Positions 44,059 through 62,848 of a stretch of 64,000 bases of DNA are shown here, one piece after another. The stretch's first letter is position 1. Every line of letters begins with the position of its first letter. The notes below the pieces were generated by a model, which made no database searches, was not told the origin of the DNA, and was given only the letters and a program-made list of their open reading frames with translations. The DNA comes from Pseudomonadota bacterium (GTDB lineage: Bacteria > Pseudomonadota > Gammaproteobacteria > Burkholderiales > Rhodocyclaceae). A program made the position numbers and the translations under genes. The DNA is taken from assembly GCA_018241665.1 (NCBI GenBank), contig JAFEDK010000012.1, positions 62,001-126,000 of the forward strand, written 5' to 3'.

Positions 44059-44958
44059 ATGCCGACTGCCGTCCTCCCCGATCCGGAAATCAAGCCCGTG
44101 CTCAAAGCACTTCCCTCCCGAGTCCGTCGTTTATCCTTGGTCGCGCTGGCACTGCTGGCCGCACATCTGACGTATGGCACGGCCTTCTACTTTTATAGTC
44201 TACCCCGTGATGATGCACTTCCGTTTGCCGATGGCTTCGAAAGTGCTGATCTGCGTCAATGGGATCACCTGGGCAGCCGCCAGCTGTGCTGCGAGCACTC
44301 GGCAAGGATCGTGACGGATCCGGTGCGCGACGGTGGCCACGCGCTGAAAGTCGAACTGCACCGGGAAGACGACACCATGCGCGGCAACAAGCGCGCCGAG
44401 TTCCGGCTGGGCAGCGCCCACTTCGGGCAGGAATATCTCTACAAAATCAGCACCTTCCTGCCCGCCGACTGGCGGGACGATCCCCTGCCCGTCAACGTGG
44501 TCCAGTGGCACAACGTGGCTGACAAGCTGCTGCTGGAGGGTGGCCCCGCCCAGCCCCTGCGCATCGTGGTCATCGGTGACGAGTGGATCATCGACAACTT
44601 CTGGGACACCAAGCCGGTCACCAAGCTTCCCTTCCTGCCCGAGCACCCCGAGGGCAACCGCCTGCTGTGGCGCGGCCCGGTGGACAAGGGCCGCTGGGTG
44701 GACTGGGAAATCCGCGTGCGCTGGTCGTATCACAACGACGGCCTGATCGACATCCGGAAGAACGGGCAGACCATCGTCCACACCGAAGCGGCCAACACCT
44801 ACAACGACTTCGTCGCCCCGTACATGAAATTCGGCGTCTACGTCCCGGCCTGGCTCGACGAGGACAAAGTCTCGCCAGTCCGCGAACGCACCGTCTATTT
44901 CGACAATGTCGGCTTCAGCCGCGTGAGCCCGTCGCCAGCCGCCCCGACCACTCACTGA
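44059..44958 (+). CDS. Membrane-anchored heparin-lyase-like protein
   Basis: A 299-aa protein with an N-terminal helix (about residues 26-48) that may be an uncleaved signal anchor, then a jelly-roll domain. Key stretches are DGFESADLRQWDHL, GNKRAEFRLGSAHFGQEYLYKIS, VVQWHNVADKLL, and YMKFGVYVPAWL near the end. This follows the heparin lyase I-like fold seen in the neighbouring gene. The ATG at 44059 is preferred to the TTG at 44047. Its last 44 nt overlap the convergent hydrolase gene. It may trim or process the EPS at the cell surface (inference). Confidence 0.72.
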   Translation: MPTAVLPDPEIKPVLKALPSRVRRLSLVALALLAAHLTYGTAFYFYSLPRDDALPFADGFESADLRQWDHLGSRQLCCEHSARIVTDPVRDGGHALKVELHREDDTMRGNKRAEFRLGSAHFGQEYLYKISTFLPADWRDDPLPVNVVQWHNVADKLLLEGGPAQPLRIVVIGDEWIIDNFWDTKPVTKLPFLPEHPEGNRLLWRGPVDKGRWVDWEIRVRWSYHNDGLIDIRKNGQTIVHTEAANTYNDFVAPYMKFGVYVPAWLDEDKVSPVRERTVYFDNVGFSRVSPSPAAPTTH

Positions 44959-61500: not shown

Positions 61501-62848
61501 CGCGGATCTGCGCCTCCAGCCCGCACACCAGCCCGAAGGCGAAATTGGGCGCGAAAGTCACCTCCACCCGGTGGCGGTCCAGCAGGTCCAGCCACAGTAG
61601 CGGCGACGAGAGGACCAGGGCGGTGGGCACCTGCACCTGCCGGCAGGCCAGGTAGGTATCGCGCAGGTGGAAGAAGATCAGGCCGGCCACGTGGTCCAGC
61701 GGCATCCAGTTGAGGGACACCATGTCCGGCGTGAAGCCGTTCATCTCGCACGAACCCAGGGTCCGCGCGATCAGGTTGCGATGGGCCAGCGGCACGCCCT
61801 TCGGCTTGCCGGTGCTGCCGGAGGTCAGCATCATCAGCGCGATGTCGTCGGGCCCGGCCGGATGGATGTCGCCTGCCGGCTCCGCGTCGGCCAGGCTCTC
61901 CACCGCCAGCACCGGGAAGTCGGTGCCCGTCTCGATCAGGCGGCCGGCCGCCGACACCTCGCCGGCCCAGCGGGCCTCGCAGACGATGGGCGCGGCGCCG
62001 CCGAGCATCTGCCAGGCATCGCCGAGGCGGCGCACCGCGCCGTTGAGCTCGGCGTAGGACGGCGCCATCGCCACCGGCACCGGGACGAAGCCGCCCAGCA
62101 CGCAGGCCCAGAATGCCTCCAGGAAATTGCGGTTCTCCTGCAGGTGCAGGATCAGGTGCGCGCCCGGCTGCAGGCCGGCACGGCGCAAACCGGACAGCAC
62201 GCGGCGGGCCCGCCCGGCCAGGTCGGCATAGCTGCCGGAGCTGCTGCGCCCCTCGGAATCGATGTAGGTCAGCGCCTCCCGGCCACCGGCGCCAAGCGCC
62301 CGCTCCAGGTAGGTCTGCAACGTGCGCGGCGCATCGGCCAGCGGACGCAGGCGGCCGCCATCCACCAGGGCCTCCGGCGCCGACAGGTCCACCGCCTCGC
62401 TGGCGGCCTCCGCCCCGGCACCGCCACCGGGGCCGAAGCCGCGCTGCCAGCCGGGGAAAAGCTCGGCCAGATGGAGCGGCCGCGCCGGCCGGGGATGGAT
62501 CACCGGCACCGCGGCCAGGCGCGCCACGCCGGCGGCCCCGGCCAGCGCCGCCTCGGCGGTGGCGATGCAGTCATCGTCGAGCACGGGAATGGCCGCCAGG
62601 GCCGCCCCGTCCACCTCGCCATCGTCGGCCAGCGGCAGGGCCGGCACCAGCACCACGCGCAGCCCCTCGGCCAGTTCCGGCTGCGCCGCGAGGATCCAGT
62701 CGCGGATCTGCGCCACGCTCACCGGCGCGCGGCTCACGACATAAACGACCTGACGGCTTTCACCGGTCCGCGCCTGCCGTTCGCGGATCGCGACGTCGAC
62801 CACCTGCGAGTGCGAGCGCAACAGCGCCTCGATCCGCCCAACATTCAT
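55502..62848 (-). CDS. Hybrid NRPS loading protein: AL-KR-ACP-C-A-PCP
   Basis: A 2448-aa protein, first gene of the operon. Residues 1-105 look like an orphan C-terminal subdomain of an adenylation domain without the catalytic Lys (DGEVDG). The AMP ligase (about 160-700) has LTSGSTGKPKG, WGMSEVSSG and Lys694 in SIGKIQR. KR (about 955-1190): GGLGGVG and Tyr1121 in AYAAAN. ACP: Ser1313. C domain: HHIVSDGWS at 1504. A domain (about 1860-2320): TSGSTGRPKG and Lys2307; by-eye code D-A-F-T-T-A-L-I-W, unassigned. PCP: Ser2362. A Pro/Ala-rich tail may dock to the next protein. It presumably activates an acyl or keto acid, reduces it, and adds one amino acid. Confidence 0.92.
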   Translation of the reverse strand: MNVGRIEALLRSHSQVVDVAIRERQARTGESRQVVYVVSRAPVSVAQIRDWILAAQPELAEGLRVVLVPALPLADDGEVDGAALAAIPVLDDDCIATAEAALAGAAGVARLAAVPVIHPRPARPLHLAELFPGWQRGFGPGGGAGAEAASEAVDLSAPEALVDGGRLRPLADAPRTLQTYLERALGAGGREALTYIDSEGRSSSGSYADLAGRARRVLSGLRRAGLQPGAHLILHLQENRNFLEAFWACVLGGFVPVPVAMAPSYAELNGAVRRLGDAWQMLGGAAPIVCEARWAGEVSAAGRLIETGTDFPVLAVESLADAEPAGDIHPAGPDDIALMMLTSGSTGKPKGVPLAHRNLIARTLGSCEMNGFTPDMVSLNWMPLDHVAGLIFFHLRDTYLACRQVQVPTALVLSSPLLWLDLLDRHRVEVTFAPNFAFGLVCGLEAQIRERKWDLSCVRMILNGGEAIVAAPTRRFLRLLAPHRLGLETMVPAWGMSEVSSGVTYEHDFRLGNTADDDKYVKVGRPIPGVLMRVVDDAGAVLRQGQVGHLQIAGDTVFGGYYGGRTPREEIFTPDGWFRTGDLARIDGDSLSITGREKDVIIINGANYSGPAIEAAVEELAGVDRSFTAACAAPDPRASGEGLALFFVPTVHEERELAALLARIRQCLTSTYGLSPAYLVPLGRNDIPKTSIGKIQRGALQKALLGGGFEARLRLVDVLTGNSNTLPPWFFTRAWHRRQGQPSAGPAGKAVLVAGQAGALFDSLAATLAGQGAQAVLVEPGEAFARVADGRFRMNPRSAADLPRVFAELAAVGLQPRQVVYLWRSEGAAEAAALPDEFDAARACAGLAAFVAGLPRAEEGVRLLVVSNGVANVSGTEGVDSVGATLAPLVHSLAAELPGLDARHLDCGAAAPADAAGHILAELAEAGAEREVAYRDGLRWVPVVAPCADVRLGEASPLVSGGRYLISGGLGGVGTELAAFLLREFAAEVVLVGRTPLPPRDQWDAPGLGEEVRARIAAHRRLADLGAGFTYVAADVADAAALRAAVLPVLGGRGVNALFHLAGAYHERRLVDETEDSLAAVFRAKIGGARVLQRLAAEWGAPCVAFSSATSLFGGALVGAYAAANRFLDSLAAQPQEAVGSRFVSLQWTSWQHTGLSERFGAAEPLRAMGLLELGVPEALRSLQLALSQPGPGLAIGLDQGNAFIARHRAELDVEARVQVFWQGDEAAVLPAASLADAFGTPVELAAARVDSLPVGEDGLLDRAALEIFALHGSGFRPAQNDTEARLVGLWRRVLGIQAVSTEANFFELGGQSLLASQLITAIGEQFGVFWTLRDIFAAPTVVAQAARLAVAGPAAGSGESGAAEAPPPSQPAAPREHEALSWAQQRLWFLDRIHPANAAFNIPAVVRFQGAADEARVRATLQQLVERHAALRTVFPLVDGVPRQRVLPTLALPLEVERLPDGQSFEQLAREEAARPFDLVAGPLFRARLVDGGGSAALLVTMHHIVSDGWSMKVFFREFAALYLSGDPACLPPLTASYADFAVWQREEAAGERVAAQLAFWKRQLAGNLTGFLLPSDFPRPAVQTYAGARHIVTLPPALSRRVRQLARSQGVTLYVALLAAFKALLARYARETDVVVGTVVANRDRQEFEALIGFLVNVVVLRTDLGSDPRFVDVLQRVQHGVLDAYANHEVPFESLVDVLQPERDVSRSPLFQIAFDLRDVEITRSPSPALGFGVMEADVGACQYDLHLTFEEHGEELVGIWQFNTDLFAAPTIARMADNFETLLAGAVARPELRLSGLPLLGAGELDALRRWNASAAPFAAGQALHQLFEAHAARAPGVPAAVFGEASLSYGELDALANRWARYLQQQGVGPGSLVGISLPRSIDLVVAVLAVLKAGGGYLPLDPAYPEERLRFMLDDARLPLLLSHAGLAPRFAGGSARVLAMDALADSVAVLPAEALPTSVGGSDLAYVIYTSGSTGRPKGVQVEHHGWCNVAQAQHDVFGIRPGMRVLQFASLSFDASAFEIAMALGNGATLVLADSDTLMPGPALAGLLARQRVQVVTLPPTALAALPDAALPELEVITVAGEACPAELVARWAQPPRRFFNLYGPTEATIWSSYARCQPGAGLPPIGRPVPNVRLYVTDGDGNLLPAGMPGELSIGGEGVTRGYIGRPELDAERFVPDRFGGQPGGRLYRSGDLVRLNAAGELEFLGRIDHQVKLRGFRIELGEIESLLLAAPEVREALVVAQQLKDGDTALVAYVTPREGATLGVDALRQRLRDALPAYMVPAYMVALERFPLTPNGKVDRAALPDPTVVAQAAVREVPQNELEAQIAAVWEEVLGNAGISRRQNFFDAGGHSMKMARVQLRLAEILGREVDLVDLFRYPTIASLASFLGSGPVAPGRPAAPVAGAPAASPRPAPDGRRIAALAERQRAARKTPNNNTK

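Follow-up and report, generated by a model that had tools for sequence, protein, structure and literature searches.

A putative two-subunit release enzyme beside a hybrid NRPS-PKS line in an exopolysaccharide locus

A four-gene operon for an assembly line and a hydrolase pair

We analysed a stretch of 64,000 nucleotides from a Pseudomonadota genome (assembly GCA_018241665.1, contig JAFEDK010000012.1; hereafter the window), which carries on its minus strand an operon for two megasynthases, P1 and P2, and two alpha/beta hydrolases, h2 and h1, the putative release enzyme of the line. The four open reading frames (ORFs; 62848-55502, 2448 aa; 55505-46575, 2976 aa; 46578-45757, 273 aa; 45760-44915, 281 aa) are all open, and adjacent ones overlap by 4 nt each (GTGA, TTGA and ATGA). 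Two of these overlaps depend on GTG and TTG starts, and the 273-aa ORF has an in-frame ATG three codons in, so that the overlap length at that junction varies with the start chosen. The domain content of the megasynthases is far above chance, with Pfam E-values of 3e-97 and 3e-157 for Condensation, 5e-133 and 1e-91 for AMP-binding and 4e-70 for the ketosynthase. An earlier reading of the bare sequence (the original prediction) had described four overlapping genes, two megasynthases and two alpha/beta hydrolases, as one tight operon, and these data bear it out.

The domain order of P1 and P2 was determined from scans of the whole proteins plus pieces. The operon contains the following features:

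55502..62848, minus strand: P1 megasynthase, 2448 aa; keto-acid-type adenylation (A) domain 173-704, ketoreductase (KR) 756-1152, thiolation (T) domain with Ser1313; then condensation (C) domain 1378-1808, A 1832-2313, T
46575..55505, minus strand: P2 megasynthase, 2976 aa, module 1; ketosynthase (KS) 16-391, acyltransferase (AT) 537-821, KR 1106-1299, T (GGDSV, Ser1419), epimerization (E) domain 1472-1905
46575..55505, minus strand: P2 megasynthase, module 2; C 1909-2350, A 2371-2849, T (GGHSL, Ser2907), followed by 69 aa whose end is basic and amphipathic
49791..51092, minus strand: epimerization-type domain within the polyketide synthase module; motifs PIQRWF, HHLASD, EGHGRE and RTVGWF
46578..46670, minus strand: P2 C-terminal tail past the last T, GRSLLGSVKSLFRRKSAT; candidate docking peptide
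45757..46578, minus strand: h2, hydrolase-2-like, 273 aa; nucleophile slot occupied by Arg123, putative pseudo-hydrolase partner
44915..45760, minus strand: h1, hydrolase-1-like, 281 aa; Cys110-Asp222-His253, proposed catalytic subunit

C-A-T modules and a KS-AT-T module are combined in one line, making it a hybrid nonribosomal peptide synthetase-polyketide synthase (NRPS-PKS). Comparison of the first P1 domain with solved protein chains gave 421.5 bits for 6ULX, a similar score for 6ULW and 416.7 bits for McyG (4R0M), the next group reaching 158 bits; 6ULX and 6ULW we take to be StsA, a keto-acid-selecting NRPS. A fatty-acyl-AMP ligase start was ruled out (3pbk, 139.4 bits). Since the StsA/McyG-like A domain is followed by KR and T, the start of P1 reads as a predicted keto-acid loading module (A-KR-T) like that of AerA. 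AerA of the aeruginosin pathway has the order A-KR-acyl carrier protein (ACP) and is described as loading phenylpyruvate, which it reduces (PMC10143770). AerA, StsA and McyG have the same succession of keto-acid-type A domain, KR and T as P1; in P1, by contrast, a C-A-T module is joined to it, and an E-containing PKS module comes next in the line.

The AT domain of P2 carries GHSLG and HAFH, the latter presumably a malonyl signature. The substrate code of A1 is D-A-F-..-T-A-L-I-W and that of A2, in P2, is D-I-L-..-L-G-M-V-W; by known codes we take A2 to be Gly-like, and the last amino acid added by the line is probably glycine. The predicted chain would be hydroxyacyl - amino acid - beta-hydroxy ketide extension - Gly. 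No thioesterase (TE) was found in P1 or P2 by Pfam scans, and P2 ends 69 aa past its last T serine.

The epimerization-type domain of P2 is labelled Condensation by Pfam; its four motifs we take to be marks of an E domain. An E-type domain after KR and T (GGDSV/GGDSI) in a PKS module is found in the window and in six loci of relatives, with EGHGRE in five of them (L074, L083, L084, L091 and L098) and EEHGRD in L076; an EGHGRE-type motif was not found in L087. A malonyl extender leaves no alpha stereocentre for such a domain to invert. Basic amphipathic tails were also seen at the ends of other synthases beside the hydrolase pair (L074, L075, L089, L121, L126, L149 and L169). Synthase tails of at least 58 aa (n=23) have a mean net charge of +3.3 in their last 20 residues, and shorter tails (n=20) a mean of 0. 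The basic tail, present in many but not all synthases, is a lead only as a docking peptide.

The hydrolase pair and its relatives

The residues of the pair were determined in homologues not chosen by motif, which showed Cys at the nucleophile elbow in 33 of 33 h1 proteins and Arg at the same position in 32 of 32 h2 proteins. We then added 80 named loci, found with a CSGA-containing pattern and with an alignment whose members had been picked for their NRPS neighbours. In the enlarged h1 set, 80 members of which were selected by the Cys-containing pattern and five of which repeat earlier loci, Cys is present in 113/113 and His in 112/113; Arg is present in 107 of the 109 h2 proteins that could be aligned (of 110). 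The Asp222 column is invariant in a 15-row alignment and kept in only 60/113 rows of the 113-row hidden Markov model alignment, making the triad acid less sure than Cys and His. By these residues h1 appears to be catalytic, through its Cys and His, and h2 inactive. SulM and ObiF are Cys-type NRPS thioesterases, cis domains of alpha/beta hydrolase fold that act on a carrier-bound chain (PMC11298585). As described there, they share the fold and the nucleophilic Cys with the prediction for h1; they are cis domains, whereas h1 is a separate subunit with a putatively dead partner, and its nearest solved folds are general hydrolases.

A fold search with both structure models yielded generic hydrolases throughout the best 50 rows listed. 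Neither h1 nor h2 matched a thioesterase family at E <= 0.001; all matches were to families of general hydrolases and to models of the TIGR03100/03101-type, lactonase, esterase and SglT kinds. A grouping with ordinary type II thioesterases, which would have spoken against the original prediction, was thus not seen.

In nine genome loci h2 and h1 are one protein in the order h2-h1 (L017, L019, L020, L027, L120, L132, L134, L137 and L147), and they are likewise fused in 11 of 12 plasmid regions examined. The structure model of a natural 605-aa h2-h1 fusion, predicted from nine sequences, has a predicted local distance difference test (pLDDT) of 80.8 and a predicted template-modelling score (pTM) of 0.84, as expected for two domains that would pack in a fixed way; the model of h1 alone has a pLDDT of 83.2.

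The layout around the pair was determined in the 80 named loci. A megasynthase stops at most 130 nt from h2 in 48 of them (from h1 in L095), it lies farther upstream in 4, and none is found upstream on the same strand in 22; in seven of these 22, NRPS/PKS genes lie downstream or run divergently (L104, L105, L106, L113, L114, L130 and L131). In a further 6/80 h2 is in frame with the megasynthase, behind the last A domain and at the TE place; the same was found in L016 and L022 of a class search (L063 and L065), giving eight loci in all. Among the 48 loci with a nearby megasynthase stop, 42 allowed the stretch after the last T serine to be measured, and in 41 of these it is 41-92 aa long; like P2, the synthases of relatives thus have as a rule no TE at this end. 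NRPS/PKS genes are present in 65/80 loci overall, within the DNA examined. Zoogloea oleivorans and Accumulibacter (L104, L105, L106 and L114) carry a different NRPS-PKS cluster with the order h2-h1-phosphopantetheinyl transferase (PPTase)-NRPS-PKS, of which L105 shows the NRPS start alone.

The class search was less biased: h2 was run against 369 genomes, and 30 loci of a longer match list, 29 of them non-own, were examined. Sorted by elbow type, an NRPS lies directly upstream in 7/12 CS-type and 1/17 other loci (Fisher p = 0.003, post hoc). Three of these eight loci (L016, L022 and the repeat L015) have h2 fused to the NRPS. Records with pair-bearing loci are titled Proteobacteria, Planctomycetota, Gemmatimonadetes, Acidobacteria, Myxococcota and others.

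The pair also occurs without megasynthases. From 40 plasmid records with an h1 relative we picked 12 regions by choice, 11 annotated and one unannotated. Six of the 11 encode the fused h2-h1 protein together with a carrier protein, an acyl-CoA dehydrogenase, an amino acid:carrier-protein ligase, DUF1839 and GH2 or beta-mannosidase; the Rhizobium NLR16a region shows the part of this ligase set that fits its stretch. These clusters share h2 and h1, here as one protein, with the window, and differ in that a single amino acid is carried on a stand-alone carrier, without a megasynthase. In two plasmid regions the pair stands with an ACP and an adenylate-forming enzyme in a polysaccharide locus. Seven fused-type genome loci were examined by tblastn (L019 and L027, with too little flank, lie outside this set); five have the ligase set, L072 has the set without a ligase match, and L134 has none. 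Loci in which a fused pair accompanies a ligase-type set are L120, L132, L137, L147, L071 and L072 and, on plasmids, L162, L163, L166, L168, L172 and L173. The pair thus occurs beside three unrelated loading systems, namely NRPS/PKS lines, an XrtA-type ligase with ACP, and the amino acid:carrier-protein ligase. A carrier-bound thioester is common to all three, and we therefore propose that h2/h1 may unload it.

The exopolysaccharide locus and the exosortase-A question

Beyond the right edge of the window (contig C3, 126001-140000) lie genes for Wzx (flippase), Wzy_C (polymerase/ligase), Wzz (chain length) and Wza (export), with Pfam matches PF01943, PF04932, PF02706 and PF02563. The operon therefore sits in a genuine Wzx/Wzy/Wza exopolysaccharide (EPS) locus; an EPS locus had been named in the original prediction. 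The neighbours given there (PEP-CTERM protein, AsnB-type enzyme, deacetylase and glycosyltransferases, GT2 and GT4) were also recovered, and the features around the operon are:

63059..64000, plus strand: GT2 glycosyltransferase, continuing past the window end
44047..44958, plus strand: polysaccharide lyase family PF14099, convergent with h1
43256..44026, minus strand: second PF14099 protein, with a relative at 55% in the G529 cluster
42013..43137, plus strand: GT4 glycosyltransferase (frame corrected), 28% to the GT4 at 31463-32707, 53% to a G529 cluster gene
40121..42016, plus strand: AsnB-type amidotransferase, TIGR03108 547.8 bits (cut-off 816.9)
39065..40105, plus strand: polysaccharide deacetylase
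38324..39016, plus strand: PPTase, probable activator of the T domains
37082..37747, minus strand: PEP-CTERM protein
36050..36961, minus strand: cupin/JmjC-like protein, also present in the G589 cluster
34883..35965, minus strand: GT4 glycosyltransferase
32991..34880, minus strand: second AsnB-type amidotransferase, 35.6% to the first
31463..32707, minus strand: GT4 glycosyltransferase, Pfam-confirmed

ORF 42069-43292 (plus strand) was rejected as a gene, being in the wrong frame with a GC content by codon position of 0.86/0.70/0.49 and no Pfam match; ORFs 41875-43230, 44200-45012 and 62921-63928 (all minus strand) were rejected for the lack of a Pfam match and a wrong GC-by-position pattern. 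The DnaE protein encoded in the window shares 89% identity with its Zoogloea oleivorans counterpart, which places the host, by this protein, as a Zoogloea-like betaproteobacterium of the wastewater type.

Relatives of the first P1 module were searched in 300 genomes of the order, eight of which, own included, match at E <= 1e-60. Identities are 50% in genome G529, 43% in G589 and 37% in G498; the other four matches span the A domain region only. The clusters of the window, G529 and G589 share the PPTase, the deacetylase, P1, a P2-like synthase, h2, h1 and GT2 amid polysaccharide genes. On the plasmid of Variovorax paradoxus VAI-C (L169) one run reads NRPS-NRPS-PPTase-h2-h1-Wza-Wzc (tyrosine autokinase)-sugar transferase, by its gene order a further, independent case of an NRPS within such an operon. 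PMC3584217 names TIGR03100 for Bcam1334, which belongs to an EPS cluster. Attachment to EPS would not be general, because only 15 of 65 NRPS/PKS-bearing named loci show a polysaccharide-type gene (tblastn queries), and within the h1 clade of the window two members out of five show none.

The original prediction had taken h1 and h2 for exosortase-A-associated hydrolases. They are homologous to that pair, and the likeness extends to the gene order h2-h1 and to a carrier protein and adenylating enzyme alongside; the family assignment itself did not hold, with h2 scoring 94.8 bits against TIGR03101 (cut-off 202.75) and h1 102.0 bits against TIGR03100 (cut-off 168.45). A canonical set is present on contig C54 (TIGR03101, 254.5 bits, cut-off 202.75; TIGR03100, 329, cut-off 168.45; TIGR03099, 634.8, cut-off 478.45; TIGR03098, 785.6, cut-off 592.35), together with an 82-aa carrier-like ORF that has no NCBIfam match at 1e-10. 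Its pair has Cys in the h1 and Arg in the h2 slot, as in the window. The pair in the window is an additional and divergent one of this genome (26.9% identity for hydrolase 1), and differs from the canonical one in being driven by an NRPS/PKS line. A tree of 108 h1 proteins, built by a quick method with SH-aLRT support, puts the canonical type (elbow GLCD or GECD, C54 copy included) on a branch of 13 rows with support 100, and the window in the CS-type group of 90 rows (branch support 98), within a five-row clade (99), all members of which have NRPS/PKS upstream.

The genome's single XrtA, the exosortase expected by the original prediction, is encoded at C54:281485 (TIGR03109, 334.5 bits, cut-off 208). 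The TIGR03098/TIGR03099 small module was not found beside the window pair, where TIGR03098 matches nothing but the P1 and P2 A domains (220-229 bits). The further claim that this module had been replaced or enlarged here by the NRPS/PKS fails, because a complete canonical module and XrtA are kept on C54 and nothing was replaced at the window. Among 78 genomes with window-type relatives, 24 (16/39 + 8/39) have an EpsH-type exosortase over the cut-off, 54 are without one, and 29 (20 + 9) have a match at E <= 0.001; the pair is thus independent of the exosortase. Proximity of the PEP-CTERM gene was dropped as evidence, since 23 such genes are scattered over the genome, the chance of one within 45 kb being about 17%.

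A coupling of an XrtA-type pair to an NRPS, not seen at the window, was found once elsewhere. In genome G197 (L068, contig C77, 9174-13756) a pair that exceeds both exosortase-A cut-offs (329.3 and 290.2 bits) lies directly behind an NRPS of 903 aa, in which tblastn shows C, A and T regions. No XrtA was found in G197, and its TIGR03098 ligase and decarboxylase lie on another contig.

Release of the product: proposed mechanism and alternatives

We propose, at a probability of about 0.6, that the product of the hybrid NRPS-PKS line is released by a two-subunit h2/h1 enzyme, plausibly onto an exopolysaccharide. Domain order, the missing TE, the residues, the layout and the EPS context are read from the sequence; the heterodimer, the acyl-enzyme, the acceptor and the product structure we infer. 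An alpha-keto acid would be loaded and reduced to a hydroxy acid on A-KR-T, and one amino acid would be joined. A single malonate extension with reduction would follow on KS-AT-KR-T, and then the epimerase-type domain would act. The last amino acid, probably glycine, would be added, and the chain would wait on the terminal T domain, without a cis thioesterase. There h2, its nucleophile replaced by Arg, may hold h1 at the last carrier domain, so that the h1 Cys (Cys-Asp-His) could take the chain as acyl-enzyme and hand it on. The recipient would be water or else the exopolysaccharide or its lipid-linked repeat unit, through a hydroxyl or amino group; given the EPS locus, transfer to a glycan seems more likely than hydrolysis. 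A tentative, rather doubtful extension would make h2/h1 a general two-subunit acyltransferase, which moves aminoacyl, acyl and peptide-polyketide chains from the carrier proteins of the three systems to glycans, with the exosortase-A hydrolases as one branch and a peptide-polyketide-decorated exopolysaccharide as the product of this locus.

Several observations weigh against the proposed release. The selection of the 80 named loci biases their layout counts upward, and in the less biased class search an NRPS A-T lies directly upstream in just 8/29 loci. The h2 Arg is replaced in L080 and L132 (Gly and His), the sole exceptions among 109 aligned, and L095 is without an h2 match. No NRPS thioesterase is among the 50 best solved folds to h1, all of which are esterases, lipases and other general hydrolases. 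By tblastn queries a polysaccharide-type gene is present in only 15/65 NRPS/PKS-bearing named loci, and none was found in two of the five clade members, L076 and L077 (the L077 contig being 7 kb). The G498 NRPS-PKS line has no h1/h2 in the 35 kb examined, and continues beyond that stretch. For the fused h2-h1 on the plasmids of Peteryoungia (L165) and Caballeronia NK8 (L167), neither a carrier protein nor a loading enzyme is annotated in the vicinity. Right behind the fused gene of Caballeronia NK8 lie three short ORFs, each about 85 aa long.

A possible, if less probable, alternative is that h1/h2 release a free, secreted and perhaps glycosylated peptide-polyketide by hydrolysis, the EPS genes being just neighbours. 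The 50/65 NRPS/PKS-bearing named loci without a polysaccharide-type gene (tblastn queries) are in favour of this, as is the resemblance of A-KR-T loading and C-A-T modules to aeruginosin-type lines; however, the window, G529 and G589 all keep the EPS surroundings, at an identity of 43-50% in the first P1 module, and the Variovorax NRPS with its pair lies in an EPS run. Stand-alone hydrolases next to NRPS genes are often editing enzymes, so h1/h2 could also be type II proofreading thioesterases that clear mis-primed carrier domains, with release by another route. We regard this as unlikely, given that the pair matches no type II TE family, that the operon has no other TE, that a fused h2 stands in the place of a TE in 6/80 named loci plus two more, and that the pair is also found with stand-alone carrier systems. 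Very improbable is a role in PEP-CTERM protein modification for an NRPS/PKS line that took the place of the XrtA small module. The genome does have XrtA and 23 PEP-CTERM genes, one near the locus, but the canonical module is intact on C54, the window pair scores under the cut-offs and falls in a separate clade, and 54/78 relative-bearing genomes lack an EpsH-type exosortase over the cut-off.

In our searches of open-access papers, the titles and abstract openings listed gave no account of the pair in NRPS/PKS release. The synthase appears ordinary in its parts, and the predicted two-subunit release enzyme would be the new element. The exosortase-A hydrolases are annotated only as 'hypothetical equivalogs', and we know of no assay of either; to our knowledge, no fate has been described for the amino acids that amino acid:carrier-protein ligases load either. 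The occurrence of the Cys/Arg pair beside three loading systems suggests a common and directly testable role for both groups, the unloading of carrier proteins. It predicts how the product may be released from NRPS/PKS lines without a thioesterase across several phyla, and for the window locus it makes an exopolysaccharide that bears the product of an assembly line conceivable.

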